Source: a virus. From it: a DNA stretch of 48,303 nt. Of this stretch, positions 16,602 to 34,302 are shown one piece after another. The notes under the pieces are model-generated. The model was not told the origin of the DNA. It worked only from the letters and a program-made list of their open reading frames with translations, and made no database searches. The DNA lies in IMG/VR virus record IMGVR_UViG_3300035670_000338, positions 1 through 48,303 of that record. One strand, given 5' to 3'. Positions within the stretch are counted from its first letter, which is position 1, and each line of letters starts with the position of its first letter. Both the position numbers and the translations under genes were made by a program.

Positions 16602-17123
16602 ATGTCCTCTGCATTTTACGACATTCAATACAAGGCTAGTGCTGGGCAGGTAAATTTAGACCAGGCTCAAGGCATTGTTGAGTGTTTTGTTGCGGGAATC
16701 GGTAACAAGGACTCCGTAGGCGATGTATGTGCTACTGGCGCTTTCACTAAAAGCCTTATGCGCCGCAAGCCTCGTGTCGTATGGGGCCATAACTGGAACG
16801 ACCCAATCGGCAAAGTTATTGAGATATATGAAGTTCCAGCGAATGATCCAAGACTTCCAGCAAAGATGCGCGCCGCTGGCATAGGTGGCCTATATGCAAA
16901 AGTTCAATTCAATCTGAACTCAGAAAAGGGCAAAGAGGCATTTGCAAATGTTGCCTTCTTTGGCGAAGAACAAGAATGGTCAATCGGTTATAAAACCCTT
17001 CGTGCCCAGTTCGATCCAGGCATCCAAGCAAATATTCTCTACGAAGTTGAGCTGTACGAAGTAAGCCCTGTTCTTCATGGCGCAAATCAGCTAACTGGAA
17101 CAATTTCTGTTAAGTCTGATGAA
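16602..17123 (+). other. Domain: HK97-family prohead (capsid maturation) serine protease
   Basis: This is the N-terminal domain of the giant protein. It starts with a strand (YDIQYKASAGQVNLD) and GIVECFVAGIGNKDSVGDVC. The catalytic His is H63 in RVVWGHNWNDPIGKV, the family's H...P(I/L)G signature. The catalytic Ser is S127 in EWSIGYKTL, and ELYEVSPVLHGANQLT closes the fold. In the phage it would cut scaffold and capsid N-termini in the prohead, and could cut the giant protein itself. Confidence 0.9.
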
Positions 17124-20100
17124 AAGGGTGGGATGATGCCAATGATGGCTCCCCCGATGGAGAAGCCAACTGATGACGAGACAGAGATGCAAGAAGAGAT
17201 GGAGCGAAAGCTTCAGGAAGAGCTTTCAGCAAGACTTGGTTCGCCAGTAAAAGTTCTAAAAATGAATGACGGAGTTGTCTATTTCAGCAGGGAAAACGGC
17301 GAGGAGAGCTCCTCATATAAGTGCCGTTACCACATGGGCAATGACGGTGTATTTATGTTTGGGCGTCCAGAAAGATTCCAAATGCCACAGGCAATGCCTG
17401 TGGCAAAGCCAGTTCCGCGAATGCCAATGGGAATGCCATCAAGACCCATGGCCCCAACTCCCGGTGCTCCGCCAGTAGTTGTTCCAGCACTTGTTCCTGG
17501 TGCAACGCCAGCATCTCCGCCAATGGTTCGTTTCAACTATGACGAAACATCAAGTGCGCCACAAGCAGAAAAACCAAAACTAGTTGCAGAGGAAAGAGAC
17601 CTAGCTGAGGCTCTTGTAAAAATTACTAAGCGCTATGGAAAATTCAATGAGGACTCAACTGGTGTTTGGGCCGGGTATAAGCCAGCTGCTGAAAATCCTG
17701 TTGCAAAAATAGGAGTCAAGTGTGCTAACTGCATCATGTTTGAGGGTGAAGGTAAGTGCAAGATAATTGACAAGCAAGTTGAGCCAGAAGGAAAGTGCAG
17801 ATTTGCAATTATTCCTGAAGGTGTTGTATCGATGGGCCCTGTCCAGAAAGTCAATTACGACATTGAGGCACAAGAAGAAGAAGTAAAATGGCTAGAAGAT
17901 ATTGAGGCCAAGTACCCAGGCGAGTTTGTTAGCGGAACTCTTCGCAATGCTGTAAAGCGTCGTCGCAAGCGCCGAATGATGGGCAAGAAAGTATTCAGAA
18001 TCGATGAGTATCAGGAAAAGTCCCTAGAGGATTTCCTTGAGTCTGACATGATGGATATTTCATATGTGTTGCCAGTAAACATTGACAATGCTTTTGAAAT
18101 AAAACAAATGATAGATCCGATTATTGATTACCACATGGTCGATGCTGTTGTCGTTGAGGACGGAATTGTTTTCACTGGCGGAGTAACGAAAGACTTTGTG
18201 GCGGCGGTTGGAGCGGCCGTCTCCGTCCCTTTTCACCAAACTGAGCAGAAGGCACTAGGCCGTAATTTAGCTGGCCGCATAACACGTACAACACGTGGCC
18301 TTACTGCTCGCTTCGACCCAAACGCTTGGGACGGAGACAATGACGGAATAGTTCAGGAAGGCACACCCTTTGAAAGACCAGCAATACCTGGTGTAAATGA
18401 TTTTACTACACGCGGAAAAGTTAATAAGAGAAAAGCTCGCCAAGCGTGGAAAGACTACAAAAAGCAGGGTAAGCCAGCCGCGCAAAAGAAACCAGAAGTG
18501 CAGAAACCTGACAGACAAGGTCTTTCGTCAGGAATGTCCGGTGAGAAACTCAGACCAGCTAAGCCTTCAAATAACGCATCAAGAGCCCTAGAGGATTCAA
18601 TAGGAAAACAGGACTATAACTGGGGCATCGATGACATCGTAGATGACTTTGAAAGAGAGTATCTCGATAACATAGACATGCTTGATCTTGAAGATGCACA
18701 CAATGAACTTGTAGCGCAATTCAAAATGAATAAAATGAAGGCACTCAAGGATGGAGTGCTGAATGATGACGTATTGGGCGACGACTTTGATGCAACCGCA
18801 AAACGAATAGCCAAGGAACTTAACCTTGACGAAGTTGACGCTGATAAAGAAGCTGGCCGCGTATTTGATGCGAGAGACGCATATCTAACTAGAGCGGAAC
18901 AGTATAAACAGGCCATAAGGGCAATAAAGAGAAGAATAAGAAACAGAGATAGAGATCTTGATATCGCAGAAGAAGCGGATAGGCGCGGAGAGCTCCCTCA
19001 ACCATCCGCAACTCGCCGTGATTCACGTCGAGGCAGGATAAATAGGGGGCGCCCGCAAGACGGAATTCTTGACAATACAACCAAAGCTGGTAGGTCTCAG
19101 GAAATTAAAGACCGCACAAATACTGGTATAGAAAAATTTGACATTGATAAAGGTTTGTCTTCAGGAAGCTCTGACTACCCGTCATACGACGCTAGTGATG
19201 AAGAGTGGAATGCATATTTTGAAAGAGCGCAACAAGAGCGTGAAGCAAGAGGCCCAAGACCGTACGGAGATGAATTGCCGTCAGGTGGGTTTAAGGAAGA
19301 TCTGAGTAATGGTCCGGGAAGTGGTACATCACGAATTTTCAGAACTGATGTTGGTTGGGACGGACAAGCAGTAATACATCACCAAGATGATGAAATAGCA
19401 GGTGTTAATTGGACCGTACTAGACCCAGAAAATATGCCAGAAGATCTTGGGTCTGCATGGTACATGGGGGATATGTCGGGCAAGAAAAAGAATCCAATAA
19501 AAGTTAGACCTGGCTGGTATGTCGACAGGATGGTGTTTGATGATTACGAAGGATATTACACAGACGAAGCAGACTATGATTTTAGTTACTCTGTAGGACC
19601 TTTTAATTCGCCTGAAGACGCTGCAAAGTACTGGGCAGATAAGGGCCTAAATCTAGATGCAGATAATAGACAACGTGCTATCAATGATGCTGGGGAAACA
19701 AGTCCAAAATTTGAAGTAGGCGAAGATGGCCTGTGGAGAAAAGTTGATGAAGATGAAGCCGGTCTATCTAGTGGCGCAAGAGTAGAAAGAAAATATCCAC
19801 CGAGATACGAGTCAAGCAAAAAACTTGCCGACCTGATGGAGTCAAGCGCTAAGCCGAATAGAAGCGATTACGACTACTCTCAAGACAGCGACAGAATTCC
19901 AACCGATGAGCAAAAAGACATCATCGACGCTGTTTTGGAAGGCAACGATGTTGTTGTAGGTGCACTTGCTGGAAGCGGCAAAACATCGACTCTAGTTTCA
20001 ATTGCAAGAAGGCTAAGAAGAGAAGATCCAAATAAAAAAGTTGTTTATCTAGCATTCAATAAGTCTGCAGCGCAAGATGCAAAGCGTAGATTTAAGGGAA

Positions 20101-23100
20101 CTGGCGTTGTTGTTATGACAATGGATGCGCTGTCATACAACTGGTATGTGGGCCAGGGAAATGATCAAAAACAACACGTTGCTAAGAGGTTTAGTCTTGA
20201 TAAAACGAAGGCAACAGGGACACCAACAACACGCAAAGATATAGCCCGTAAATTTAAGCCTAAACCATACAGATTTACTGATTCAGATGGAATTGAAAAA
20301 GAACTTTCGTCTGAAGATATAGCAAAAATGGCAATTGATGCTGTTAGTCAATTTGAAATCTCGTCCGATGTTGAAGTTGGACCACAGCACTTTGGAAAAA
20401 GAAAAGGTTCAATTTTTGAGGAAATGCCTTCTTCTGAAATTCCACCTGGAGCAGTAGATCTCGCTAAAAAAATATGGGCTAGCAAGATTGACACAAAAGA
20501 CCCTGAAGGTGTTCAGATCTCAAACTCAACTATTACAAAATTAATGGCCCTTGACATGCCATCTATTGGCAATGGAGAAGCTACTGGAAGAAAAGTAGAT
20601 CTCGTCATGATTGACGAAGCTCAAGACCTAAACCCAGTATTCACTGACTTTGCCATAGGGCAAAAAGGTCTTCAGAAAGTCACGGTTGGTGATCCAAATC
20701 AAGCAATTTACGGATTCCGTGGCGCAAGAAATGAAATGGACAGAATGGGAGCAGAAGCCGATTACGTTCTTCCGCTAACAGAAGTTTTCAGATTTGGCCC
20801 AGAATTGGCGGGACCAGGAAACAGAGTTCTTTCACTATTCAATATTATGCGAGGAAGAATGGTTGGAAGAGGCGGATCTGGTGAGGTAATCGATCCTCCT
20901 GGATCAATGGAAAAACCAGACATGATTCTCGCCAGAACAAATGCTGGAGTAATAAAAGAGAGCATGGCATCTCTAGATGCTGGGCGTACTGTCGCAACAA
21001 CCAAACGTGCTTACGATGAATTAGAAAGTTTCATAGAAAGCTGGAAGTACTTAATTGGAGCAAGCAAGACTCCACCAGCAAATATGCATGCAGATTTAAA
21101 AGAGTATGACAGCTACAAGGACCTAAAAAAAGACATAGATCAGGGCACCGCTTCGCAAAAAGCAAAAACTCTTTTCAATATCGGCATGGATAATAAAGTT
21201 GAAGATCTTGAAAAGCTATTAGGTTCAATTTTCATCTGGAACCCTGACGATGAGGGTGGTGAATCAACCCTAATTGAAGAACCAGAAGATTTTGAAGTTG
21301 GTACACTTGGAATAATTGGACCAGCAACATATGAAATTCTTGATGACGAAATAGTTTTGTACGACTCATTTGAAATTAAGGACTGGATCAAAGCATCCGG
21401 CGGATGGACATTTGACTTTAAAAATACAAAGACATGGCGCAAAAAGGCCAGCACTCCAGAGGAAAGAGAAAGCGCATTAATTTCTTTAGCTGATGCTTTG
21501 AATAATGGCACATCTGGTAGTGATGTTGATGGGGCAAAAATTCCTAGTTCATTAAAAAATGGTGACTCTGGTAAATTTGGAAAAATTGAATGGGAGGTTC
21601 GCGGTGGAGAAATAGTTCTCACTGGGGGCACGTACCCAGTAAAAGACAGACTTGACTCTGTCGGTTGGAAACTAAGGAAAACATCAAAGAAGAATCCAAA
21701 GACCGGTAAGCCAATTTGGGAGACTTATTACAAACTTTCTGGTGATCAGCAGGAAGATCTCGACATGATGGAAATTCTGGCTGGTATTGCAACTGGCGGT
21801 GCTCCTATGCCGAGTTATGCATCAACAATTGTCAAAGCTACAGATGATGAAATATTGGAAAAAGCAAGGAAGATTGCTGACAAACCGACTACCGAAGAAA
21901 GAGATAGAGATATTATCAAAAATATCCTTGCTTCATATGAGCGTAATGGGTGGCTAAGGAGAAGAGCGTGGGAAACTCTTGAGGGCAAAACAAAAACGAA
22001 AAGAGAAACTCCGCCGATAGATGTGCGCGTCCTTACAGCGCACCTGGCAAAGGGACTTGAAGCTGACAATGTGAAACTTGCAAATGACTTCTGGGGTCCC
22101 AGACAGAAGATGGAAACAGTTCCAGGAACTGGCGATAAGGTGCCGTCGGGAGAAGTTGAGTGGCCAGACGAAGAGCACATGAAGGTTATGTACGTTGCTC
22201 TAACTCGTGGCAAAAAAACTCTTGACCCAGGTTCGGCGTCATGGATATACGGCTACACAGACGAAGACGATGACCTTCCAGAAGATCCAGACCCAGATCG
22301 TTACTTAATCGGTGATGAGGAAGCTGGTCTTTCATCAGGAAGAAAGAGGAGAAAGAAAGCTAGCGCCCAGCGTGCATGGTCTGATGAGGATCGCCAGAGA
22401 TTTGCCGATGGTAATAGACTGCGAGCGCAAACTGTTCCTGGCAAGAGAAAACAAGGCCCGACAGCTGATGAATTCAGAGGACTTTCCTCTGGGGCAGTAA
22501 GAGATGTACGCACCGGCCTGTCTTCTGGTGGGATACGTGAGGGCATTGGCGAATCTGAACTATTCGCTGGCTCTAAATACATAGAGCAGCTCTACACACC
22601 AAATCTGGAAATGGATGTTATTCCGGCTCGAGATATATATGGAGATGACACTCCTGGTTATGCAGTCGTAGGTCGCTACTTGAATTCAGACGGTGTAGAA
22701 GATTGGCTCTACGGTGGAGATGATGAGATCTTTAGCTCTGTCGAAGACGCAGTTGATTTTATGGTTAACTTTGACCGCCAGCTAGAACAAGGAATAGATC
22801 CAGAAGATCCAAGATGGCAGTCAGTTGAAAGAGCGCGCACTACTAGAAAACTGCGTGATCCGCTCGAGGAATCCATGATGAGAATTGCCGAAAGGTTGCT
22901 ATATGAAAGTGGGCTAAATCGTGGTTTGTCATCCGGTGGAGGTAGCGCTGATTCGCGTCGTAATATTCCAGAAGTAGTAGCTAGCGCCCGCAATATAGAA
23001 GAAACTGTAGATAGATGGGAAACAAACCTAGAAGCTGATATTTATAGGGCCCGCATGGGTGGTATGAGCCTTGACGATGCAGCGCAAACATTCGGAATGA

Positions 23101-26099
23101 GCCGTGCTGATATTAGACAGGCTGAAATTAGACATCAGGCTAGATTGCAAGGAGTAAATAAGCCATCTGCAAAAAATGAACTACGCAGAATGCGGAATAC
23201 TAATCTAAGCATTAATGAATCAGCCAGGAGAGCTGGAATACGTCCAGAGGTTGCTAGACAGCTTGAAATAATCGAATCGAATAGAGGCTTATCATCAGGA
23301 GCTAGTCTAGATCCAGAAGATATTCAAAAAACATTAGACATGGTTAGGGCAAAAGCAAAGCTAGAGGAGGGTGTAGAGAATTTAACGCCTGCAGAGAAGA
23401 GGGAGTTAAGGGCTCAAGCACGAGTAGGAGACACGGCATTCGGAAGACTCCTTGAATCGCTTCGCAAAACATTGACATCACAATTTAGAAGGGAGAAATT
23501 TCAGGGAGCACAACAGCTCGGATTGGATCTAGACGATTTAGTTTCGATAGGGATGACAAGAATAATAAAAAATATATCAACATTTGATCCAGAAAGATCA
23601 GATCGTGGCATAGCTGAATCTTTCAAAAACTGGGTATTGATGACCGGAATAAAGGGCGTCAGTGACGAGCTTAGTGCGAGGAGAGGTGAAGTCGGCGGCA
23701 GTCGCGGAATAAGAACAGAATCGATAGAGGCAAGAGCTGGCGGAAGAGGAGTAGACAAACAAGAGGAAATAGCTACAGATTTCAACCCAGATGAGGCTTA
23801 CTTTGAGGGTTTCCAAATGAATCTCAGGGAAGGTCAAGGAGACACTGCTGAAGCTTCTTCTTCTGATGCTGGCGGAGTTTCCGTATCCGTAGCTATGGAT
23901 GCAGAAGAGGGAATTTCATATGAAAGTGTTAATGCGGAAAGAACGCTGTATGGGAAAGGTTTTGGGTATCGCGTAGATAATCCAAAACTAAGAGCGGAGT
24001 ATGACGAAGCTTTAAGTGATGCATACGAAAAAGGAACTGCAGTATACAAGATAAGGTCCGATAGACCAAGAAAAGAAACATTTGTAAAAAATGGTGGATT
24101 CCCGACATTTGAAAAATGGGCCAAAGATGAAAAGGGAATTGAAAACCCTAAAGTTATATATGCTCCAATTTTTGACGTAGATGGAAATTTACAAACGGGT
24201 CGGGATGCGAGTCCTAGATATAAGTCAATAATGAGTAAGGCAAAATTTGGCCCTATTTCTGGCAATGAGTCAAATAGGGCAGCCGAAGATCCATCAAAAT
24301 GGATGCTTCCACTTTCACAATTCAGGAAGCTATTCAAAACAAACGATGGAAAACAAATGGCGGATGTAGAAATCGCATCACTTATTGGAATCAGTGAATC
24401 AGATATTGCATCCTGGGATGACCCTGATATGGGAATCGATTTGGAAACCGTGAGAGCTCTTCTTGAGGAAAGAGAAATTATCTCTAAAGCAAGCGGGAAA
24501 AATGGCACTGTGACACTAACTCCAGGCGATCTTCGTAGGATAAATTCCTCCATAGAAGATACATGGGGGTTTGGTTCATTCCCATATATGGTTGCAACAC
24601 GTGTAAACAATACGACTGATGCTGTTGATGAAATAATAGAGACAGCTGAAGATTATGAACGACTAAAACGGCTGGCTAAGAAAAATCCAGAAGAAATTCG
24701 CATTTCTGGATTAACAATAGATCCAAAAGTATTGGAGAATGAAGAGTCAACATTTATTCCATTAACGAATGAGCAAAAAGCTGAATTTGCCAAAAAAGGA
24801 CGCATAGAAAAATCAAAAGAAACAGCTGGTCGTGGTTCGTTCCCGGCCGAACTTCTTGGAAGAAAACTTGGTTGGATTAGCGAGGGTGATGACCCTGATG
24901 ATCCGGATGTTCGCAAAAAACTTATTTCTGGATTGCAATCAGTAATACATGACCTATCTGAAAAAACTGCCCAGCAAATGCTGAGAGACGGGATCACGGC
25001 TGATGCTGTAGACAGATTAGCATCTGCTGGAATTATAGGAAGTCCAAGAGAAATAGCAAGCCCATCTGCGTTAGCGGATGATCCTGATGTTGGTAAATTT
25101 ATATCAAAGAATGGAGCAAAGGATAAGATTTACAACTTCCTTAAAGAGCTTGGGCTTGGTGACGTACAGGAACGATCAATATTTAACGCAGTTTTTAATT
25201 CACCCACTGCGCAGAAAGAATACGTAGCTAAAAAAGCAAAAGAAGATTCTGCAAGAGAATTAATACCAGCAGGAAAAATCCAAATGAGCAAGGGTGGTGC
25301 TGGCGCGCGAGTTTCGATAACCAGAGATGAGTCTAAAGAACTCGTTGGAAAACTTAACGAGAGACTGGAAAAGGCAGGACTAAGTCCAGTCGGCAACGAC
25401 TTCTTGCTACGTAGCAATGGCTTGAGCAGCGGTGAAGGGCTGTCCTCTGGAGCAACATTTATTAGAAAAAAAGCTACGGCAAATGAAGTATCTAATTTTG
25501 TAAATATCGCAACCCAACGTGGAAAAATTTCTGGAGCTGCGACACGTAAAGAAATGCTTGACCCAGAAGTTGGACAGCTACAGCTAAGCAGACTAAAGAA
25601 TGCTCTAAGAGCATACGATGTACTTGCAGATCAATTCCCAAGAATTGCAGATAATCCAAATATGTCGATAAACGATATTGGGACAGAGGATATTGACAAC
25701 CCACAAGAAGCTATAAGTTCAATACAGAAACTTCAGGCATATATAAGATCCATCTCAGAACAGGCTTCGGAGTCATACGAAGGACAGCTTGCTGAGGAGA
25801 GAAAAATTCAATATGCAGAATCACAGAGGCAAAAGGTTCAAGAAATGCTTGACTCTTTGGGTGATTCGGACTTTGAGGTTTCAGAGAGTCTGAAAGAAAC
25901 TCTCCAAAAGCTAGATTCATCAATATCAAAATCGCAAGCAATTATTGAACAAGATTATGCCCCCCTAGCGAGGGTTAGGGGTCAGATTAATGACCTGATT
26001 AATTCGGTCAAGGGATTTAGTAGAAATAATGGCGTAAGTAGGCAACAAAGAACAAAAGGTGCACGGGCAGCATCTAATAAGCGGCTAATTTCTATCTAG
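16602..26099 (+). CDS. Giant polyprotein: prohead protease, Cys4 module, SF1 helicase, HTH and sigma-like domains
   Basis: A single uninterrupted 3165-codon frame. Residues 1-175 are an HK97-type prohead serine protease (H63, S127). Residues 374-399 hold a C-x2-C-x8-C-x12-C module. A Ca-binding-like loop (WDGDNDGIVQEGTPFERP) lies near 575-595. Residues 1059-1908 are a UvrD/Rep-type SF1 helicase, 2113-2228 two HTH-like segments, and about 2234-2400 a sigma-70 region-2-like domain. The last 215 residues are coiled coil. Ten GLSSG pentapeptides separate these parts. Typical prohead proteases are 200-300 residues, so most of the protein is extra. I infer a capsid-targeted polyprotein that is processed in the prohead, so helicase and sigma-like pieces could be packaged and delivered. 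A sequencing fusion is unlikely because the frame is open throughout and the next plus-strand gene follows at normal distance. Confidence 0.9.
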   Translation: MSSAFYDIQYKASAGQVNLDQAQGIVECFVAGIGNKDSVGDVCATGAFTKSLMRRKPRVVWGHNWNDPIGKVIEIYEVPANDPRLPAKMRAAGIGGLYAKVQFNLNSEKGKEAFANVAFFGEEQEWSIGYKTLRAQFDPGIQANILYEVELYEVSPVLHGANQLTGTISVKSDEKGGMMPMMAPPMEKPTDDETEMQEEMERKLQEELSARLGSPVKVLKMNDGVVYFSRENGEESSSYKCRYHMGNDGVFMFGRPERFQMPQAMPVAKPVPRMPMGMPSRPMAPTPGAPPVVVPALVPGATPASPPMVRFNYDETSSAPQAEKPKLVAEERDLAEALVKITKRYGKFNEDSTGVWAGYKPAAENPVAKIGVKCANCIMFEGEGKCKIIDKQVEPEGKCRFAIIPEGVVSMGPVQKVNYDIEAQEEEVKWLEDIEAKYPGEFVSGTLRNAVKRRRKRRMMGKKVFRIDEYQEKSLEDFLESDMMDISYVLPVNIDNAFEIKQMIDPIIDYHMVDAVVVEDGIVFTGGVTKDFVAAVGAAVSVPFHQTEQKALGRNLAGRITRTTRGLTARFDPNAWDGDNDGIVQEGTPFERPAIPGVNDFTTRGKVNKRKARQAWKDYKKQGKPAAQKKPEVQKPDRQGLSSGMSGEKLRPAKPSNNASRALEDSIGKQDYNWGIDDIVDDFEREYLDNIDMLDLEDAHNELVAQFKMNKMKALKDGVLNDDVLGDDFDATAKRIAKELNLDEVDADKEAGRVFDARDAYLTRAEQYKQAIRAIKRRIRNRDRDLDIAEEADRRGELPQPSATRRDSRRGRINRGRPQDGILDNTTKAGRSQEIKDRTNTGIEKFDIDKGLSSGSSDYPSYDASDEEWNAYFERAQQEREARGPRPYGDELPSGGFKEDLSNGPGSGTSRIFRTDVGWDGQAVIHHQDDEIAGVNWTVLDPENMPEDLGSAWYMGDMSGKKKNPIKVRPGWYVDRMVFDDYEGYYTDEADYDFSYSVGPFNSPEDAAKYWADKGLNLDADNRQRAINDAGETSPKFEVGEDGLWRKVDEDEAGLSSGARVERKYPPRYESSKKLADLMESSAKPNRSDYDYSQDSDRIPTDEQKDIIDAVLEGNDVVVGALAGSGKTSTLVSIARRLRREDPNKKVVYLAFNKSAAQDAKRRFKGTGVVVMTMDALSYNWYVGQGNDQKQHVAKRFSLDKTKATGTPTTRKDIARKFKPKPYRFTDSDGIEKELSSEDIAKMAIDAVSQFEISSDVEVGPQHFGKRKGSIFEEMPSSEIPPGAVDLAKKIWASKIDTKDPEGVQISNSTITKLMALDMPSIGNGEATGRKVDLVMIDEAQDLNPVFTDFAIGQKGLQKVTVGDPNQAIYGFRGARNEMDRMGAEADYVLPLTEVFRFGPELAGPGNRVLSLFNIMRGRMVGRGGSGEVIDPPGSMEKPDMILARTNAGVIKESMASLDAGRTVATTKRAYDELESFIESWKYLIGASKTPPANMHADLKEYDSYKDLKKDIDQGTASQKAKTLFNIGMDNKVEDLEKLLGSIFIWNPDDEGGESTLIEEPEDFEVGTLGIIGPATYEILDDEIVLYDSFEIKDWIKASGGWTFDFKNTKTWRKKASTPEERESALISLADALNNGTSGSDVDGAKIPSSLKNGDSGKFGKIEWEVRGGEIVLTGGTYPVKDRLDSVGWKLRKTSKKNPKTGKPIWETYYKLSGDQQEDLDMMEILAGIATGGAPMPSYASTIVKATDDEILEKARKIADKPTTEERDRDIIKNILASYERNGWLRRRAWETLEGKTKTKRETPPIDVRVLTAHLAKGLEADNVKLANDFWGPRQKMETVPGTGDKVPSGEVEWPDEEHMKVMYVALTRGKKTLDPGSASWIYGYTDEDDDLPEDPDPDRYLIGDEEAGLSSGRKRRKKASAQRAWSDEDRQRFADGNRLRAQTVPGKRKQGPTADEFRGLSSGAVRDVRTGLSSGGIREGIGESELFAGSKYIEQLYTPNLEMDVIPARDIYGDDTPGYAVVGRYLNSDGVEDWLYGGDDEIFSSVEDAVDFMVNFDRQLEQGIDPEDPRWQSVERARTTRKLRDPLEESMMRIAERLLYESGLNRGLSSGGGSADSRRNIPEVVASARNIEETVDRWETNLEADIYRARMGGMSLDDAAQTFGMSRADIRQAEIRHQARLQGVNKPSAKNELRRMRNTNLSINESARRAGIRPEVARQLEIIESNRGLSSGASLDPEDIQKTLDMVRAKAKLEEGVENLTPAEKRELRAQARVGDTAFGRLLESLRKTLTSQFRREKFQGAQQLGLDLDDLVSIGMTRIIKNISTFDPERSDRGIAESFKNWVLMTGIKGVSDELSARRGEVGGSRGIRTESIEARAGGRGVDKQEEIATDFNPDEAYFEGFQMNLREGQGDTAEASSSDAGGVSVSVAMDAEEGISYESVNAERTLYGKGFGYRVDNPKLRAEYDEALSDAYEKGTAVYKIRSDRPRKETFVKNGGFPTFEKWAKDEKGIENPKVIYAPIFDVDGNLQTGRDASPRYKSIMSKAKFGPISGNESNRAAEDPSKWMLPLSQFRKLFKTNDGKQMADVEIASLIGISESDIASWDDPDMGIDLETVRALLEEREIISKASGKNGTVTLTPGDLRRINSSIEDTWGFGSFPYMVATRVNNTTDAVDEIIETAEDYERLKRLAKKNPEEIRISGLTIDPKVLENEESTFIPLTNEQKAEFAKKGRIEKSKETAGRGSFPAELLGRKLGWISEGDDPDDPDVRKKLISGLQSVIHDLSEKTAQQMLRDGITADAVDRLASAGIIGSPREIASPSALADDPDVGKFISKNGAKDKIYNFLKELGLGDVQERSIFNAVFNSPTAQKEYVAKKAKEDSARELIPAGKIQMSKGGAGARVSITRDESKELVGKLNERLEKAGLSPVGNDFLLRSNGLSSGEGLSSGATFIRKKATANEVSNFVNIATQRGKISGAATRKEMLDPEVGQLQLSRLKNALRAYDVLADQFPRIADNPNMSINDIGTEDIDNPQEAISSIQKLQAYIRSISEQASESYEGQLAEERKIQYAESQRQKVQEMLDSLGDSDFEVSESLKETLQKLDSSISKSQAIIEQDYAPLARVRGQINDLINSVKGFSRNNGVSRQQRTKGARAASNKRLISI
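19776..22325 (+). other. Domain: UvrD/Rep-type superfamily 1 DNA helicase
   Basis: An 850-residue segment exactly bounded by GLSSG motifs. Walker A is GALAGSGKTST with K1127. Walker B is LVMIDEAQDLNP with D1338/E1339. Motif III is VGDPNQAIYGFRGA, the late motif is VLTAHLAKGLEADNV, and motif VI is MYVALTRGKKTL with R1869. All motifs needed for activity are present, so an active ATP-dependent DNA translocase is likely. The 2A/2B region contains a long insertion of unclear fold. Confidence 0.92.
22938..23700 (+). other. Domain: paired HTH segments and sigma-70 region-2-like domain
   Basis: Residues 2113-2228 hold two helix-turn-helix-like units, MSLDDAAQTFGMSRADIRQ and LSINESARRAGIRPEVARQ. After the next GLSSG, residues near 2306-2360 read LDLDDLVSIGMTRIIKNIST, then FDPER and SFKNWVLMTGIKGVSDEL. 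This follows the sigma-70 region 2 pattern (DLxxxGxxxLxxxxxxFDPxxx, F..W....IK..). A further HTH-like piece (ADVEIASLIGISESDIASW) lies near residue 2590. It could bind host RNA polymerase. Promoter recognition is unproven. Confidence 0.65.
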
Positions 26100-26169
26100 G
26101 ACAAAATAAAAACCTTAATCAACAGGTCAGTAATACCGTGATGGTACATACTGGTTTGTTAGTTTAGGT

Positions 26170-26205
26170 TATAATTTTACGGCGATTCTTTTTTAGGAGC
26201 CTAAA
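26170..26205 (+). promoter_or_regulatory. Candidate promoter and palindromic ribosome binding site before scaffold-like gene
   Basis: TATAAT at 26170-26175 is a perfect -10, 32 bases before the ATG, though no good -35 is found upstream. The ribosome binding site AGGAG lies in the palindrome TTTAGGAGCCTAAA (26192-26205), which can form a 5-bp stem with a GAGC loop and partly hide the site. A separate promoter here would let scaffold be made in excess of the giant protease protein. Confidence 0.42.
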
Positions 26206-26206
26206 T

Positions 26207-27646
26207 ATGGAAACTGAGAACAAGCCAATGTTGAGCATTGACGAGGACGGCAACGTACTTAAGTGCGCCAAGGGCATGGGCGCTGACGCCTGTGGCTATA
26301 AGGGTGGTCCAGTCTGTGCGAAATGTGGCGCTAAACCTGTCGAAATGAAGATGGTTCCTGTCGACATCACCGAAACAAAGGGTGCTTCCAAGAAGGCAAT
26401 GATGGAAGACGAAGAGGAGATGGAAGACGAGGAAGAGGCCGCCGCAGAAGCTGAAATGGGCGAAGAAGAGGAAGAAGAAGAGATCGAAGAAGAGGATTCC
26501 GGTCCTGGTGAGTCCGAAATGGACGATGAAGAGGACATGGAGGATGAAGAGGACATGGAAGACGAGGAGGATATGCCTGCCGACTCTATGAAATCAAAGA
26601 AGAAGGGCATGAAGAAGCCCTACAAGAAAATGGGCATGGCTTCTGAAGAAGACATGGAAGACGAAGAAGACATGGAAGACGAAGAGTACGAAGACGAGGA
26701 AATGAAGTCTTCGATGATGCGCGACATGCGTAAGCGCCGCATCAACTCCATGGGTATGAAAGCCGCTGATCTTGGCGAAACTGGTTACATTTGCGCAATA
26801 GAGAGAAAAGCACATCCGGGGGCTTCTCCAGTATGCGATGACTGCCCTGGTGGCTGCATCGCAGAAAAGGGACTACCGGGCCTCCTTGAAGTTGAGGGAA
26901 TTGCCGAAACAGAGTTCAAAGGCGTAGTAATTGACTCTGGGTATTCATCAGATGCCGACATGTTTGTTGTTGACGTTCAGGTCAAGGACGGGTCCGTTCG
27001 TGAGGTATTCATCGACGGAACTACGGCAGAAATTGTTGGTTTCCACAAGCTCGATGACGAAATTCTTGAGAAGAAGTCAGCAATAGACGAAATGATGGTT
27101 ATCGGATTTGTCGATGCAGCAGAGATAGCTGTTAAGGCAATCGAAGGAACTGTCGTTGCAGTAGAGCCAGATATCTTTGAGGGAATTGACTCATACGCAG
27201 TCGAGATCGATGGCGTAGACGGGAAGTCTTACGACGTATTCGTCGGACTTGATGGAGAAGTTCTCGGATACGACAAGTATGAGCCAGAAGAGGCTGAAGA
27301 AATTGAGGCCGAAGCTGCTGAAATAGCCCTTAAGAGAGCATTCTCTGAAGAGCGCAGAATGAGCATGGCGAAAGAGGGCATGGCCCTACCTGACGGCTCA
27401 TACCCGATTGCCTCAGAAGATGACCTTAAGAATGCAATCCAGGCTTTTGGACGCGCAAAGGACAAAGAAGCTGCCAAGCGCCACATTATGAAGAGAGCTA
27501 AAGATATGGGCAAGGAAAATTTGATTCCTGCCAATTGGGTTGCTGGCGGTGAAACACAAAAGAAGTCAAACGAAGAGTCAGATGCAGACTTTATGAAGTC
27601 GCTAATCGAGTTTGAGCTTCTACAAGCCGACATCGAAAACAACTAA
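26207..27646 (+). CDS. Acidic scaffold-like protein with PepSY-like and DUF6582-like parts
   Basis: A 479-residue protein between the protease and downstream head genes, the usual place for a scaffold. The N-terminus carries Cys pairs (KCAKGMGADACGYKGG, then VCAKCGAKP). Residues 65-165 are extremely acidic with repeated EDMEDEED units, broken by a Lys patch. A second Cys group (GYICAIERK, CDDCPGGC) follows near residues 190-225. Residues 235-375 contain two PepSY-like repeats (DVQVKDGSVREVFIDG and EIDGVDGKSYDVFVGLDGEV). The C-terminus (MALPDGSYPIASEDDLKNAI, then GRAKDKEAAKRHIMKRAKD) matches a short domain common in phage head proteins, which I recall as DUF6582. A scaffold or packaged internal protein is likely; a direct enzymatic role is not suggested. 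Confidence 0.8.
   Translation: METENKPMLSIDEDGNVLKCAKGMGADACGYKGGPVCAKCGAKPVEMKMVPVDITETKGASKKAMMEDEEEMEDEEEAAAEAEMGEEEEEEEIEEEDSGPGESEMDDEEDMEDEEDMEDEEDMPADSMKSKKKGMKKPYKKMGMASEEDMEDEEDMEDEEYEDEEMKSSMMRDMRKRRINSMGMKAADLGETGYICAIERKAHPGASPVCDDCPGGCIAEKGLPGLLEVEGIAETEFKGVVIDSGYSSDADMFVVDVQVKDGSVREVFIDGTTAEIVGFHKLDDEILEKKSAIDEMMVIGFVDAAEIAVKAIEGTVVAVEPDIFEGIDSYAVEIDGVDGKSYDVFVGLDGEVLGYDKYEPEEAEEIEAEAAEIALKRAFSEERRMSMAKEGMALPDGSYPIASEDDLKNAIQAFGRAKDKEAAKRHIMKRAKDMGKENLIPANWVAGGETQKKSNEESDADFMKSLIEFELLQADIENN
26521..26703 (+). repeat. Imperfect tandem repeats coding acidic DEEDME units
   Basis: Two blocks of GA-rich imperfect repeats (26521-26573 and 26645-26700) encode repeated EDMEDEED units, separated by a stretch coding for Lys and Met. 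Such tracts can expand or contract by slippage. They also create the long antisense Ser-rich frame over 26296-26610, which is not a gene. Confidence 0.7.
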
Positions 27647-27663
27647 GAAAGCGCGGCCCGCCT

Positions 27664-30600
27664 ATGACGGGTAAGTCGTATGTAAAGACCAGAATTGTGG
27701 TCAGCGATAAGTTGCTGTCCCCATTGGCAAATAGAAAATCATTCGATGAATCTGCAGTGGCATTCAAAAAGAGCATTAATGCCTCGGTTCTATCGCCACG
27801 CCTAAATGCAAATCTTTCCGTCAAGGCTCTTGCATCTGCTCCATCAAAGGGAAATACAGACGGGAAGAAAAGAACAAATAAAGGTGGCGTCCCTGGCGTA
27901 GAGACATTTGAAGGCGGCTATAGGTATAACCCAAAACAAAAATGGGAACCCGGAAAAGTTTTACAAATTCATACCTCGTATACCAAGAGAATGAATCAAA
28001 GAATTCAAACCCCAAACTGGGGATGGGTTGATGAGAAAGAAGAAGAAGAACAAAAAAACAGTGCTGAAATAGTTATTAAGAAATACAGAGTCAATCCAAA
28101 AACTGGCGAAAAAATACCAGACTCAGAAGTCGAAATGAGTCCTTTTACCGTGACTGGTCGCCAGCCAGAGTGGATGACAAGCACCAAGCAGCTTCCTGGC
28201 AAAACGATAGGCCAGATAATGAGGGGTGGCAGTTTGCTGCAGGCTGCCGCTAGGGCAGTTGGCGTCATAACCGATCCAGATGGAAAGCTTAGATGCCCAC
28301 CCGGTACTCCAGCAGCAAACCAATTCACGGATGCAATGGGATCCAACTGTTTCGGTTTTAGCGCTTCTGAGATATACGACATGGCACAACGTGTCGCTCA
28401 CGAAGCAGCACATATTATGCGCGAGCTTGAGCCATCTGAAAACACTGGTCTTTCTTCTGGTGCACCAGCAAAGCAGACAAAGGGATCACTGCTAAATACA
28501 GCAAGAAGCTGGAGAAAGCTTCTTGGCAATGTTCTTGATGAAGCACGAGAAGTTCCATGGCTGAAGCCAGATGGTAGACAAGTTATTCCATCACAATGGG
28601 AACTTGATGCAATGCCTGACGAGTTCAGGTGGTTCAAAGATGGGGCAAGGCGTGGTCGTCGCAGCCTTGTTGATATGCGTAAGACGGTCCAAGACCTAAA
28701 AGATCGCTATGGAATAGGTGAGTCAACTGGCTTTGATAAAAATGCAGACCTAATTGAGCTTCGCGACAGACTATCTGCAGATGGAATCATAGCAACAGAG
28801 TTTGTAGGGAGGCCAGATACTGAGCGGGAATGGAGGGAGCGTGCAGCAGATGCACTTGTTGCAAAATTCGGTGGAAGGAACTTAGACAAACTTTCGCCAA
28901 ATCAATTAGAAGACTTATTAAAGAAGGAAATAGAGCTTCAATTTGAATTAGAGAGAGCAATGCTCTCAGAGTTTTTTAAGTCATATACGACAATGCCTGA
29001 TCACATGCGGACTGTCGGTGCACTTGTTTGGCAGCATAATACAAAAACCAATTCAGATGAGGGTGGGGCAGTCTGGAATGTAGATGCGCCAAATGGTCAA
29101 CATTCATATATTCGTTTGAATATGTTCAGAATATCAACTAATACACAAATGTATCTACCAGAGCTTTTGGAAAACGAAAGATTACGTATAGAGGCTGAAA
29201 ATGGTGGATCAGATTCAGCAAATGCTGCAGCGTTGCACGACTTTCTGGTAAGCAACCTTGTTTACAGCAAACAGTCTGCTGCTTTAATAGGTGGCCATGA
29301 ATCTTTTGCTCGACACATAATGTCGCATGAGATAACCCACACAGTTCAATTGAGTGCAATTGTCGGAGCAATAGAAGATGAATTATCAGCTAATGGGAGA
29401 ATACGTTTCTATGACCCAGAGACTGACTCATGGGGATATATAAGTGCATCATCAATAAAAGAATTAACAAATGAAGAAATAAATACTCTCATAGATACAA
29501 TACTCAGGCATAAAGATGGTGTGAAAAAGATTGTTCCATCTTTGCAGAAAGCAATAGATGACGCAGAGAATGCGAGATTCTTAGCCGGAAAATATATTGA
29601 TGACGTTGAGGGTCTTGGTAATACAAAGATTGTTCAGGCCATGGAGATAATGGCAGAACTTGGCGCCTTGAGAGCACAGGGAATTATTTACGGAAAAGAA
29701 GTTGACGATGCTCTTTCATGGATGGATGCGCATATTGATACGAGATTCTCGGATGAGAGGGGAATATCCGATGCTGAGCAAACACAGAAATTTATAGACT
29801 TAATTAATTATGCCCAGTCAGTTGGACCAGCGGAAACGGCAAGAGGGTTCAAGGACCCAATATGGACAGATGAGCGCGTTTACAGGGCTTCTGTTAATGA
29901 AGAAATACAGCGAATATCAACAATGGATGATGAAGACGAAATAGTTGATTTCATTGCTGATAAAGAATTTGAGATTGAACAATTAATTGAGGCAGTTAAA
30001 AATAATCCAAATGATAGTGATCTTGGAAGACGCCTAAAAGAGGCCAGAGATCATATGGCGCTTGCTAGAAAGCGTTGGAGAGAAAATAATGATGGTGTTG
30101 ACAATGTTGTACTACAAGAAAAAGTAAAAAGAAATAGAGATGAAAAAGATAAGTTAAGTCCTGATGTACTGAAAAAGCGTAATGACATCCGTGATTTGCA
30201 GAAAATCGCAGATGCTGCCGACAAGGCATCAGAAGACGACATTGTTAACACTCTCGCATATCTAAAGAACAAGCTAAAAGACCCAAGCTTGAGCGATGAA
30301 ACAAAAGACAAACTCAAGAAATATGCATCTATATATAGAAAAGCATTTGCAAAGCGCAAGAGCGAGGCTGGAGACACCAGAAGCGCGCAGGCTGTAGCTA
30401 GGGAACTTGATAAGCGCGTTGAAGACAGACTTAACCCGAAGAAACCAAAGACTGAAGATGATTCTCCGCTTGACTCATCCAGCACCGTAGCGCCCAAGTC
30501 AAAAACGATAAAGCCGAAGCCAATAAAGCGTCCAAAGAATAAAGCTGCTGTAACTAAACATACAAATTCAGAAAGAGAAAAACTAAGAAACGAAGCAACT

Positions 30601-33600
30601 GATGAAGAGCTAGAAGCGGTTGTGGAAATGTCTGACCCAACCGGCAAGGCAATAGCAGACATTCTTGATCCAGAAAAACGAGTTGAGGCAGTAGATAAAA
30701 TAAGGACAAGAAATGACACAATGAAGGCATTGGGTCTTGAACCAGACCCAATGGCTCATGACGAGGGTTCCCTCGAAGAGCAAATGGAAAATATATTGAT
30801 GCCACTGCTCGATATATTGGAACGCTCTGAGATATCCGGCCCAGTAGAAATAGAAACTACTGTAAATCTTACTGACGATCAGATAAATGGAACAGATACA
30901 TCACCGATAAGCATTGATGGTCTGATTACTGGCCGCTTAGTAGATCAAAATGGATATAGCTCTGGTGAACCTGGTTCTCGAGATGAAAACAATGGGAAAG
31001 TGCCGCATAGGGTGGTTATTCAAACCGAAGAAGGGCAGAGAGGCTACTACCCACACTGGAGTGATTCATCAAGAAAGGAACCAGCAGACTATGTTCAAAA
31101 GGTTGTCTTGCCACCAGGTCAAATAGAGATAGTCGATAGGGTTACGGAGAAAGATGGCTCCACAACGCTTATAGCAAGAGTTGTTTCACAAAAGAACACT
31201 GAAGAAATACTGGATGGATTAGTTCCAGGACAGGGTTCAGAGGAACTTCCACCTGGTGCTGGAATTACAATACAAAAAGCAGTTAACAAGCACATCGTCT
31301 CAAGACGTGGGCGTGGTCTTAGCCAGGAGACAAGAACTCCATCAGATGAAAAAGAAATAATCGAAACATCAAATGACATTGTATTTGATGAAGTTAATGA
31401 AGATAATGGTTCGTTTGGTACGCAGCTAGATGATTCTCAAGTTGATGCGGTCAGAGCTGATGTTGAATCTCCAGACTCCTCCGAAGAAGATGTATATGGT
31501 CCGGTAGAGACGCGCGAGGAAAGAAGAAAGAGAAGAGCTGAAGAACTAAATGAAATAACCAATAGAATAAAAGAGATATTTGAATCTGGTCAAGCAGACG
31601 AGGAACTTGGGATATCTCCAGAAGATATAGACCCAGAAGTCTTGTCGATAATAGAAAACTCTACACCGGAAGAACTAGAACAAATACTTGCTGAGGAAGC
31701 AGAAAAAATACATGAAGATATTGATGCGCGCCCAAGAGATGTTGTAGATGAAGATGGTCTAGAAGAGCTAATAGATCCACCAGCACAGGAAGAAGAGAAA
31801 CCAAAACGGCCATCATGGGACCTTGGTAGGGACGATACTGGGGTAGATAGGGGAACTCGCCCAACTAACGAAAAGCCTGCTGATATTCCAGCAGATGTTG
31901 ACCCAGATACTGGAGAAATAATAAATCCAGACGAGGACGACTATAAGCCAAATCAAAAACAATCAAGAGCCGATCTCCAGAAAAATTTTGTTTGGCGCAG
32001 TGGATATAAGGATTCAAAGAGAAGATATTACCCAACAAGAATTATAGAAAAAATATTAAAAAATGAGTTGTCGCTGTATCAGGCCGAGCAGGAAATTCAA
32101 CGACAGCTGGAAAATACATATCCGGGAAGCATTCTATATGGCATAGCAATGGAGGGTTTAGGAACTGCAAATCTAGATGAAATGACTCCGGAACAAATAG
32201 TTTGGCTGATGGACCATGCTTACTATCAAGCTGCTCAGCTAAGACGCGATGCAGCTGCCCTTGGTGGAAATCTTACAGTTAGTCAACGACTTACCAAACA
32301 AGATTTGGATAACAAGGCGCAGGCTATGGGAAGAATGCAAAGCGCCCTACAGGACTACCTAGACATTATCTACTATAAGGTAAATGGAAAATTCTATTAT
32401 CCTAATGGTGAGTGGAATAATTGGGGTAGTCCAATTTTGCCAAAACCATCAGATGCGCCTGGATTTATTATGGAGCCTGGGAGGAGTGATGGTCTCCAAA
32501 AATCAACTTATGAAACTACATCACCATATGGAGACTGGGATGATGACCTAACACCGGAAGAACGTAGATTCATTATGGATAACCCAGGGCAGCCCCTAGG
32601 TGGTTTGAGCTCTGGTGCCAGAAGTGGTATCGCTGGCCGTGTTGCAAAAAGATTGATAAGGCCAGCAGTAGACAGACTTGATGTTGATGATGAAACAAAA
32701 GACCGCATTGTCATGGTTGCTGAATACGCTGCAGCAGTTGCTTCAAAGGGGCCGACTGGCGCACTCGTGCATGTTGCCACCGAAGCAGCACGAAGGGGCG
32801 GAAGAGATGTTGCCGAACTAACGATAAAGAAACTTGTTGATTCAGGGAAAATAACTGAAGATCAGGCAAAAATAGCCATGTCAGTTGTCGACAGAGTCGC
32901 CCCCGAAGGCTTGCCGGATCCAGTAAAAGATGCGCTCGTCGATGGTTATCAAGTAGTAGATAAATTTGTAGATGAGCGTGTTCTTACCGACGAGAATAAG
33001 GAAAGACTTCTTCAAGCAACTGAAGAGGCTAGGGAAAAGCTATCAACTGCATCGGAAAAGACTAGAGATGCTGTTGGAGATGCTGCTAAAAAAGCAAAAG
33101 ATAAGACTAGAAAAGGTCTAGCAAAACTGCGCGATAGAAAGCGTGAAGTAGACGACGTACCGGCATTGGATGATGTCATATACGAAGCATATTCAGATCC
33201 AAATGATCCATTTGGTTCGCCACCGTCACCACCAACTAGAGCCACAAGAAAAGATACTCCAAGCGCATTTGATGAACCATATGAATTTGATCCGTTTGCT
33301 GGACTTTCATCTGGGGCTTCTCCTGCGCGTAATGCTGGCCTATCATCTGGCGCTGGAGGCGAAAGAGAGAAAAGAAGGTTCTCGAGAAGAATGAGAAAAG
33401 CTGGAAAGAGCATAACTAAAAGCTCTGGAGCAGCAGAGAAGGGTAAAACAAATAATGAAACAACAGCGTCAACATATATACCGCTATCACCTCAGGGCCT
33501 AAAAGAAATAATAAAAACAAACCCATACTCAAGAAAAGCAAAACATGGCGGAAAGAAAAAAATAGATGGATTACTAGAAGATGCGTCTGTTAAGTGGGAA

Positions 33601-34302
33601 TTGCAGGGTGAAATGATTACTGCGGTCTCGCGCGTTTTGGAAGAATCACCAGGCATGAAGGCATTGGTTAAAGAATTTGGCATGCCTCCAATGATGTTTA
33701 CTGACAATTTTATGGAGGGGCGCGAAAACGACTTCATGTATAGAAGTGGTTATAGGCCAAGTCCGTGGTTTAACATTTCTGGTGCATATCTGAATGGAGC
33801 TGGTTTCATACAAATCAATCCTAAGTATTTGAGAAATCAAGCATTTCTAGACCACTTGATAAGACATGAATTGATTCATGCATTTCACGCCATGGCTCAG
33901 AAGAGAAACAAAGAAGCCAGGGAAAGAATGCAGGAAGTGGCATCCGGAATGGTGGAAGACAGCATTGAAGTAGCAAAACGCGCTGGCATGGACAAAACAA
34001 GATCCCTAGATTTGAGCCAATTAGACCCAGATGAACTGGCAAGAGCCCAGCAGCAACTAACGCCAGAAATGGAAAGAATTTCAAGAATGTTTACCAAATT
34101 CGGCTACTCTGGAAATAACACAGTTGCTTCTCAAAATCCTGGTGAATTTGTTGCGGAAGTTCTTGCATACGCAACATCTCCGGACCCTTCAATGAGGTCA
34201 ATTGTGCCCCCAGAAGCGTTTGCGATTGTCGCTGAATTTTTCGGGATAACAGCTCAGGAATTAAGAAAATTGACATCGACCCCATCAGAACGTTTTATAT
34301 GA
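27664..34302 (+). CDS. Giant polyprotein with two HExxH metallopeptidase-like domains
   Basis: A 2212-codon protein. A basic N-terminal region leads to a Cys motif (RCPPGTPAANQFTD, then GSNCFGFS) near residues 210-240. The first zincin motif is HEITH at 555-559 and the second is HELIH at 2068-2072. The second is followed by NPGEFVAEVLAYA near 2150, a good third metal ligand. The middle (residues about 900-1640) is charged and partly disordered, with a beta segment near 1060-1180 that loosely resembles an ADP-ribosyltransferase core. Residues 1652-1879 are amphipathic helices rich in Lys, Glu and Ala. Four GLSSG motifs occur, one just before the second peptidase. No Shine-Dalgarno precedes the ATG, so the start is less certain. 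It is probably an internal virion protein processed like the first giant protein. Confidence 0.86.
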   Translation: MTGKSYVKTRIVVSDKLLSPLANRKSFDESAVAFKKSINASVLSPRLNANLSVKALASAPSKGNTDGKKRTNKGGVPGVETFEGGYRYNPKQKWEPGKVLQIHTSYTKRMNQRIQTPNWGWVDEKEEEEQKNSAEIVIKKYRVNPKTGEKIPDSEVEMSPFTVTGRQPEWMTSTKQLPGKTIGQIMRGGSLLQAAARAVGVITDPDGKLRCPPGTPAANQFTDAMGSNCFGFSASEIYDMAQRVAHEAAHIMRELEPSENTGLSSGAPAKQTKGSLLNTARSWRKLLGNVLDEAREVPWLKPDGRQVIPSQWELDAMPDEFRWFKDGARRGRRSLVDMRKTVQDLKDRYGIGESTGFDKNADLIELRDRLSADGIIATEFVGRPDTEREWRERAADALVAKFGGRNLDKLSPNQLEDLLKKEIELQFELERAMLSEFFKSYTTMPDHMRTVGALVWQHNTKTNSDEGGAVWNVDAPNGQHSYIRLNMFRISTNTQMYLPELLENERLRIEAENGGSDSANAAALHDFLVSNLVYSKQSAALIGGHESFARHIMSHEITHTVQLSAIVGAIEDELSANGRIRFYDPETDSWGYISASSIKELTNEEINTLIDTILRHKDGVKKIVPSLQKAIDDAENARFLAGKYIDDVEGLGNTKIVQAMEIMAELGALRAQGIIYGKEVDDALSWMDAHIDTRFSDERGISDAEQTQKFIDLINYAQSVGPAETARGFKDPIWTDERVYRASVNEEIQRISTMDDEDEIVDFIADKEFEIEQLIEAVKNNPNDSDLGRRLKEARDHMALARKRWRENNDGVDNVVLQEKVKRNRDEKDKLSPDVLKKRNDIRDLQKIADAADKASEDDIVNTLAYLKNKLKDPSLSDETKDKLKKYASIYRKAFAKRKSEAGDTRSAQAVARELDKRVEDRLNPKKPKTEDDSPLDSSSTVAPKSKTIKPKPIKRPKNKAAVTKHTNSEREKLRNEATDEELEAVVEMSDPTGKAIADILDPEKRVEAVDKIRTRNDTMKALGLEPDPMAHDEGSLEEQMENILMPLLDILERSEISGPVEIETTVNLTDDQINGTDTSPISIDGLITGRLVDQNGYSSGEPGSRDENNGKVPHRVVIQTEEGQRGYYPHWSDSSRKEPADYVQKVVLPPGQIEIVDRVTEKDGSTTLIARVVSQKNTEEILDGLVPGQGSEELPPGAGITIQKAVNKHIVSRRGRGLSQETRTPSDEKEIIETSNDIVFDEVNEDNGSFGTQLDDSQVDAVRADVESPDSSEEDVYGPVETREERRKRRAEELNEITNRIKEIFESGQADEELGISPEDIDPEVLSIIENSTPEELEQILAEEAEKIHEDIDARPRDVVDEDGLEELIDPPAQEEEKPKRPSWDLGRDDTGVDRGTRPTNEKPADIPADVDPDTGEIINPDEDDYKPNQKQSRADLQKNFVWRSGYKDSKRRYYPTRIIEKILKNELSLYQAEQEIQRQLENTYPGSILYGIAMEGLGTANLDEMTPEQIVWLMDHAYYQAAQLRRDAAALGGNLTVSQRLTKQDLDNKAQAMGRMQSALQDYLDIIYYKVNGKFYYPNGEWNNWGSPILPKPSDAPGFIMEPGRSDGLQKSTYETTSPYGDWDDDLTPEERRFIMDNPGQPLGGLSSGARSGIAGRVAKRLIRPAVDRLDVDDETKDRIVMVAEYAAAVASKGPTGALVHVATEAARRGGRDVAELTIKKLVDSGKITEDQAKIAMSVVDRVAPEGLPDPVKDALVDGYQVVDKFVDERVLTDENKERLLQATEEAREKLSTASEKTRDAVGDAAKKAKDKTRKGLAKLRDRKREVDDVPALDDVIYEAYSDPNDPFGSPPSPPTRATRKDTPSAFDEPYEFDPFAGLSSGASPARNAGLSSGAGGEREKRRFSRRMRKAGKSITKSSGAAEKGKTNNETTASTYIPLSPQGLKEIIKTNPYSRKAKHGGKKKIDGLLEDASVKWELQGEMITAVSRVLEESPGMKALVKEFGMPPMMFTDNFMEGRENDFMYRSGYRPSPWFNISGAYLNGAGFIQINPKYLRNQAFLDHLIRHELIHAFHAMAQKRNKEARERMQEVASGMVEDSIEVAKRAGMDKTRSLDLSQLDPDELARAQQQLTPEMERISRMFTKFGYSGNNTVASQNPGEFVAEVLAYATSPDPSMRSIVPPEAFAIVAEFFGITAQELRKLTSTPSERFI
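28447..33351 (+). repeat. Four GLSSG motifs in the second giant protein
   Basis: GLSSG occurs at residues 262, 1647, 1880 and 1892 (nucleotides 28447, 32602, 33301 and 33337), each time followed by Ala. The last two are separated by 7 residues, as is one close pair in the first giant protein. A diverged form, GYSSGEPG, is at residue 1097. As in the first protein, the codons differ between copies. Confidence 0.9.
29326..29340 (+). other. First zincin active-site motif (HEITH)
   Basis: Codons for H555, E556 and H559 form HExxH in FARHIMSHEITHTVQLS, inside a helical stretch as in zinc metallopeptidases. A downstream Glu for the third ligand is plausible (MEIMAELGALRAQG near residue 665) but not certain. 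The preceding 200 residues are mainly helical with a strand-rich part (SYIRLNMFRIS). Confidence 0.7.
33865..33879 (+). other. Second zincin active-site motif (HELIH)
   Basis: H2068, E2069 and H2072 in LIRHELIHAFHAMA, followed about 80 residues later by NPGEFVAEVLAYA, give an HExxH...E arrangement typical of zincins. The segment after the last GLSSG (residues 1897-2212) is the size of a free peptidase. It would be released as one unit if cleavage occurs at GLSSG. Confidence 0.8.

Follow-up and report, generated by a model that had tools for sequence, protein, structure and literature searches.

A GLSSG motif at the module borders of two giant phage proteins as a putative proteolytic processing site

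Results

The IMG/VR virus record IMGVR_UViG_3300035670_000338 was analysed over its whole length of 48,303 bases (the window) and is possibly a fragment of a phage genome. It encodes two giant proteins, polyprotein 1 (3165 amino acids (aa), 16602-26099) and polyprotein 2 (2212 aa, 27664-34302), in both of which the pentapeptide GLSSG recurs. Both genes lie on the plus strand, as do the motifs, domains and tags and the portal, acidic and capsid genes described below. We found, by comparison with related genomes, that GLSSG quite probably marks proteolytic processing sites at which the two late-gene products would be divided into virion cargo proteins. This cleavage-signal reading is well supported by comparison: the copies sit where modules meet and persist in linkers that have otherwise diverged, their sequence is characteristic of each lineage, they occur almost exclusively in giant proteins, and one of the two chains has a prohead protease of its own.

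A six-frame motif scan returned exactly 14 copies of GLSSG in the window and none outside the two open reading frames (ORFs). Polyprotein 1 holds ten of them: GLSSG 1 (18519-18533), 2 (19152-19166), 3 (19761-19775, residues 1054-1058), 4 (22326-22340, residues 1909-1913), 5 (22479-22493), 6 (22515-22529), 7 (22923-22937), 8 (23286-23300), 9 (25419-25433) and 10 (25437-25451), the last two in tandem. Polyprotein 2 holds GLSSG 11 (28447-28461), 12 (32602-32616), 13 (33301-33315) and 14 (33337-33351). When both proteins were shuffled 3000 times, the mean number of copies was 0.01 and the maximum was one; the runner-up unrelated pentapeptide occurs twice. All 14 copies are spelled by different 15-nucleotide sequences, with a mean pairwise identity of 66%, and therefore GLSSG is not a DNA-level repeat. 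Against an origin by chance or by recent DNA duplication thus stand both the expected count and the spellings, and nothing was found in its favour; we rejected it as having practically no probability. Within polyprotein 1 every SSG belongs to a GLSSG, and the residue that follows the motif is Ala in eight of the 14 copies and Gly in two. The first copy sits in a stretch of the AlphaFold model with a predicted local distance difference test score (pLDDT) of about 36. A sequence-only reading of this DNA had reported the same number and distribution of copies, the same expectation, many codon spellings and the same following residues, and our counts agree with it.

Next, relatives were collected through the major capsid protein (39932-41284; phrog_10, 2.5e-60), which gave 80 IMG/VR loci; 36 of their records were searched, 30 of which contained an S78 prohead protease domain, and about 40 kb was read from each. 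A protein of about 2500-4900 aa starts with the S78 domain in 24 of these 30 genomes, and 23 of the 24 carry a repeated x[LF]SSG, with 6-24 sites per genome over the giant proteins, mostly in orthologous giants. The remaining one (G035) has GF[AS]S in place of x[LF]SSG. With the window included, the LSSG-type set comprises 24 genomes. The first residue of the motif is genome-specific. The window shares G with its two nearest relatives, G032 and G027 have K, G024 and G031 have S, and most others have R. In four genomes S78 is encoded as a short protein of its own, and their other giant proteins bear [IV][ST]GxM (the ISGxM type). In some genomes the motif-bearing giants include a third one, encoded downstream of the capsid gene. 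Five near-complete genomes, each with 45-52 thousand aa of ORFs, had the majority of their motif copies in giants, and the few others were near chance numbers.

A second survey, started from the S78 domain, extended this pattern. Complete S78 ORFs of about 560-1600 aa had none of these motifs, isolated single matches aside. Both S78 ORFs of more than 2400 aa carried new variants, namely [RG]GLAS at 14 sites (L259, 4794-12164) and DGxxAGM at about seven sites (L258, 9956-20542). Every S78 giant examined carries a motif. Homologs with motif-free borders, which would have refuted the sequence-only reading, were looked for and did not turn up among homologs with giant proteins. In an S78 tree, which leaves out G035 and two other genomes, every motif type held by several genomes forms a clade, and the AGM type adjoins ISGxM. 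No comparable border motif was found in the isolates Brevibacterium phage Cantare, Gordonia phages Chidiebere and GMA6 and Streptomyces phage Gilgamesh, which have related capsid and protease genes, and the survey thus yielded no cultured member. In Gilgamesh, an unannotated protein of about 4,600 aa without an obvious border motif (gp48; L146, 11979-25853) is encoded between portal and protease; this cultured phage is a possible culturable comparator. An actinobacterial host is likely for the window phage, since Gordonia and Brevibacterium are the hosts of the nearest isolates and, of six related contigs from bacterial genomes, two were binned as Actinomycetota or Acidimicrobiia.

To describe where the motif falls, we compared motif positions with random positions in the giants. 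The flanks of the motif were less conserved (identity 0.098 versus 0.200, p 4e-49), with lower homology depth, and less hydrophobic (0.19 versus 0.27, p 9e-84). Homology ran through a motif in 2045 cases, and in 939 of them (46%) the partner genome showed a motif of its own no more than 3 aa away, compared with 0.6% for random positions, and in 563 of these 939 (60%) the two motifs differed in their first residue. These results bear on the view that the motif is a flexible Gly/Ser-rich linker or a recombination seam with no recognition by any protein. Its placement in diverged, hydrophilic linkers is what such a linker would show. However, the sequence is fixed, has an obligatory hydrophobic residue and is kept at aligned positions amid diverged flanks; it has many codon spellings, is nearly absent from the other proteins of the genome and is replaced by lineage-specific alternatives, of which ISGxM is not a flexible-linker sequence. 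The comparative data largely refute this view, and we consider it very improbable.

When the proteins were cut at the motifs, the resulting modules were of steady length and turned up again in different proteins, and the motif count follows the module count. Families made in this way are circular as evidence for borders, so the border test was redone on uncut, non-orthologous giants. Edges of homology blocks lay a median of 16 aa from a motif, compared with 107 aa for shifted blocks, and 61% of edges versus 15% were within 25 aa of one; 71 of 247 blocks crossed a motif. The p-values of the block-edge test are indicative only, since related genomes are not independent. One candidate piece of border evidence, a gene of G002 that appeared to be split at a motif, was dropped, as the homologous m9 continues in another frame, which points to a frameshift or an assembly break. 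There (L084/L085, joined position about 8739) the polyprotein frame is broken around m9 by an apparent frameshift, either real or an assembly error.

In the window, the clearest bordered unit is the UvrD/Rep-type helicase module (m17; 19905-22223, residues 1102-1874; Pfam UvrD-helicase 3.9e-16, phrog_1967 7.7e-69), which lies exactly between GLSSG 3 and GLSSG 4, its N-terminal and C-terminal borders. GLSSG 4 and 5 bracket a mini-module of about 50 aa, m9, that is conserved in 12 genomes. The C-terminal modules of polyprotein 1 are of unassigned function; one has a stretch resembling sigma-70 region 2 (23520-23603, residues 2307-2334), a weak match under the gathering score (Pfam Sigma70_r2, E=0.0075). 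A general sigma-factor role for the C-terminal module m3 was considered and dropped, the sigma-2-like extension being present in one of eight aligned genomes, that of the window.

In relatives the modules further comprise ArdC-N with MPTase-PolyVal (m4, 8.8e-45), which combines anti-restriction and metallopeptidase domains, an RNase_T, DnaQ-type exonuclease (m8), NUDIX, DnaJ and zeta-toxin kinase. Helix-turn-helix/sigma-4-like domains and a weak RelA/SpoT match were also among the modules. ArdC-N and MPTase recur among the domains of polyvalent proteins (Iyer et al. 2017, PMC5512222), and the repertoire is typical of early-acting, injected phage proteins. Motif-bounded modules also move between non-orthologous giants. 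Module m8 is part of the second giant in some phages, of the S78 giant in G005 and of the third, downstream giant in others, and it was also found in ISGxM phages. It is 35-61% identical across the two clades; its homology sets in a few residues past LSSG in one clade and past ISGRM in the other. Of all single cases, m8 argues most strongly for module borders.

The giants also carry short conserved elements near their N-termini. In polyprotein 1 an EF-hand-like tag, DGDNDGIVQEGTPFERPA (18330-18383), lies just before GLSSG 1, and the corresponding D-x-[DN]-x-DG...EG element was found shortly before the first motif in many S78 giants and third giants. The domain of about 80 aa around it in relatives is 55-61% identical between the S78 giant (residues ~539-622) and the third giant encoded downstream of the capsid gene (residues ~24-108), ends at or near the first motif and could be a removable head-targeting domain. 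In polyprotein 2 a conserved tag, CPPGTPAANQFTDAMGSNCFG (28294-28362), lies near the N-terminus; one short, Cys-paired element of the CPPGTPAANQFTD..GSNCFG type is present in each ortholog and is possibly a head-targeting tag as well. In G033 (L124), related elements (GWRCPVGTRYGGQITDRFGRSC) were seen near the N-termini of two other large proteins.

These tags bear on whether GLSSG itself could be an uncut signal for docking or targeting, by which each module would be anchored to the scaffold or the inner capsid. A docking signal would likewise be lineage-specific and placed in linkers, and internal proteins of T4 have short N-terminal targeting sequences (PMC9026906). On the other hand, one docking signal per chain would be enough, yet there are up to 24 copies per genome, about one per border and some as tandem pairs, and their number follows the number of modules. 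GLSSG is less likely as a targeting signal because it is internal and repeated, and the N-terminal tags, where detected, are present once per protein. Capsid targeting more likely depends on these separate tags than on GLSSG, and we regard the docking view as improbable. Where the sequence-only reading had proposed cleavage or capsid targeting, the comparative evidence supports the former well and makes the latter less likely for GLSSG itself.

If GLSSG is cleaved, the next question is which protease cuts it. The sequence-only reading had overlooked the domain at the start of polyprotein 1 (16668-17105), which we assign to the S78 prohead serine proteases (Pfam PF04586 1.2e-9, phrog_80 3.2e-25) and for which cleavage of head proteins is predicted. 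Its His63 and Ser127 are invariant in 30 aligned genomes. Given cleavage, we consider this protease, fused to the N-terminus of polyprotein 1, the likelier cutter. It lies in cis, on the same chain as the motifs, and belongs to an established class of processing enzymes, which processes heads in T4 and SPN3US (PMC9026906, PMC10052503). In its favour, too, none of the S78 giants examined was without a motif.

Several observations weigh against this assignment or against cleavage at every border. Between lineages whose motifs differ greatly, the S78 domain keeps 77-85% identity, and only two of its positions cleanly distinguish the LSSG from the ISGxM clade, a small difference if specificity had switched. 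ISGxM phages encode the S78 protein in a gene of its own, and it has no motif there. GLSSG is absent from the major capsid protein, which would be the expected substrate of S78; only an L[ST]SRE stretch is present where the N-terminal region of the capsid protein ends. Several domains stand together with no internal motif in some long modules (m2, m7), and neither proteomics nor biochemistry was found for any member. As an observation in its own right, L[ST]SRE precedes IKSIGEMF at capsid protein residues of about 100-115 in most LSSG-type genomes and is possibly an LSSG-like maturation site.

The main alternative cutter, given cleavage, is the HExxH peptidase of polyprotein 2 (29161-29823, HEITH at 29326), to which we give a clearly smaller chance. 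The two histidines and the glutamate of HExxH, and the distal glutamate, are invariant in 26 of 26 aligned sequences. Its AlphaFold model (pLDDT 80) gave weak VIA-align matches, mostly to zinc metallopeptidases (neprilysin Z 5.0, ZMP1 4.8, LTA4H 3.9), which is suggestive of a gluzincin-like fold. The domain had no Pfam match; Foldseek with the S78 and HExxH models returned no match at E <= 0.001, and profiles of the S78 and zincin regions gave nothing significant against PDB sequences.

In its full form this alternative holds that the gluzincin-like enzyme cuts the motifs, in the prohead or after injection, and that S78 matures only the shell. All motif-bearing genomes in which the second giant was examined, the ISGxM clade included, have the domain at a matching position in it, and its sequence diverges far more from one motif clade to another than that of S78. 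Motif-profile distance tracks it slightly better than S78 (r 0.29 versus 0.16, partial Mantel p 0.03). G036, which has no motif, also lacks a second giant with HExxH, and release by metallopeptidase domains of polyvalent proteins has been proposed in general (PMC5512222). However, the correlation is weak, is confounded by shared ancestry and is equally strong for a neighbouring non-peptidase part of the same protein, and S78 is the class with the established role in heads. Together, these points make this account rather unlikely. The sequence-only reading had pointed instead to a final peptidase in polyprotein 2 (HELIHAF, residue 2068; HELIH at 33865-33879), which is unlikely as a general cutter, as a C-terminal counterpart was seen only in the closest relative (HEMAH, G001).

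Finally, the two giants stand in a head-gene block in the order portal (14448-16508; Pfam Phage_portal 2.6e-48), polyprotein 1, an acidic ORF of 479 aa, polyprotein 2, several smaller ORFs and major capsid protein. A tblastn search of polyprotein 2 against annotated phages gave no match. The acidic ORF (26207-27646; 28% aspartate plus glutamate) lacks the motif, is conserved in relatives and is a candidate scaffold. In relatives, an acidic Cys-containing ORF, essentially without the motif, directly follows polyprotein 1 or the short S78 protein. The protein at 43290-43694 (WYGATVLKVLDGDTIDLMIDLGF...) resembles, by eye, a staphylococcal-nuclease-type (thermonuclease) domain and is also conserved, close to the capsid gene, in relatives. 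Downstream of the head genes of G017 (L111, joined 31646-32080) and G004 (L091, joined 37855-38241) are small Lys/Ala/Pro-rich, histone-like proteins (KKAPAKKAPAKK).

Discussion

We infer the following course of cleavage, packaging and ejection. Each giant would be translated as one chain and brought into the prohead by its N-terminal part, through the prohead protease domain, the conserved tag or both. The chain would then be cut at each x[LF]SSG in the disordered linkers, releasing separate enzymes such as the helicase, nucleases, anti-restriction and metallopeptidase modules and DNA-binding modules. These would be small enough to leave through the portal and be ejected with the DNA at infection. 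We somewhat favour a further proposal, that of a plug-and-play cargo polyprotein in which a lineage-specific border code allows any module to be inserted, loaded by one N-terminal tag and released by the protease. The borders of a module that moved into a phage with another code would be rewritten, as with LSSG and ISGRM, and the code and its protease would thus act as a compatibility barrier to cargo exchange.

Fusion of a protease to its own substrate has parallels among eukaryotic viruses. In the herpesvirus assemblin-scaffold precursor the protease is at the N-terminus of its own late substrate, which has internal cleavage sites. The arrangement is alike in both respects, whereas the assemblin substrate is a scaffold and not a string of enzymes. 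The S78-region model had weak Foldseek matches to the varicella-zoster virus and human cytomegalovirus proteases, none at E <= 0.001. Polyproteins of eukaryotic RNA viruses have a protease in cis and one recurring cleavage consensus at domain borders; the window, in contrast, comes from a double-stranded DNA tailed phage, and its giants would be late virion cargo. The giants resemble viral polyproteins in being single ORFs whose units are split by a consensus like a protease site, with a protease in the chain, the cleavage itself being presumed. The analogy to RNA virus polyproteins was drawn, in the accessible text without sites, by Iyer et al. (PMC5512222).

Among phages, the closest processing systems are those of T4 gp21, phiKZ gp175 and SPN3US gp245, which share with the window a serine protease in the head block, a short cleavage motif (L/I-X-E for T4 gp21 and A-X-E for SPN3US gp245) and processing of packaged ejection proteins (PMC9026906, PMC10052503). 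In those phages each cargo has its own gene, mostly loses an N-terminal propeptide and is cut after Glu, whereas in the window a single chain joins many cargos and x[LF]SSG, as the putative site, has no Glu. In crAss001, large phage proteins are likewise stored in the virion and ejected, with partial unfolding proposed for their exit; no protease is mentioned there (PMC10172136).

A 2017 study predicted packaging and injection of polyvalent proteins and proposed their release by an embedded peptidase (PMC5512222). They are alike in being giant multidomain proteins of the portal/capsid block, where ArdC-N, MPTase, helicase, kinase and DNA-binding domains occur in them. Polyprotein 1 of the window likewise combines at least two unrelated domains in one chain (S78, UvrD and the weak sigma-like part), and both window giants are encoded between portal and capsid. 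Packaging in the virion and delivery to the host may apply to the window giants, as is predicted for polyvalent proteins. Unlike the proteins described in the accessible text of that paper, which contains no repeated lineage-specific border motif and no polyprotein led by a prohead protease, the window has S78 at the head of the chain and one consensus separating the modules. The searchable literature, which leaves most subscription papers and all bioRxiv preprints outside its coverage, held nothing relevant on GLSSG or LSSG in phages, and no searchable paper reported a repeated lineage-specific border motif or S78 heading a string of cargo enzymes. From sequence comparison, the giants are to be grouped with polyvalent proteins and their protease with family S78; as far as the searchable papers show, the border motif and the S78-led cargo string appear to be new.

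With a visible, lineage-specific site sequence, of which we found no earlier description, the predicted proteolytic release of polyvalent proteins becomes testable. The motif also lets giant phage proteins be cut in silico into single host-takeover and counter-defence enzymes, many of them uncharacterised. If the cleavage-signal reading is true, these giants would be the equivalent, in a DNA phage, of RNA-virus polyproteins and would offer a natural, modular format for protein delivery, with a defined N-terminal address and defined cut sites.

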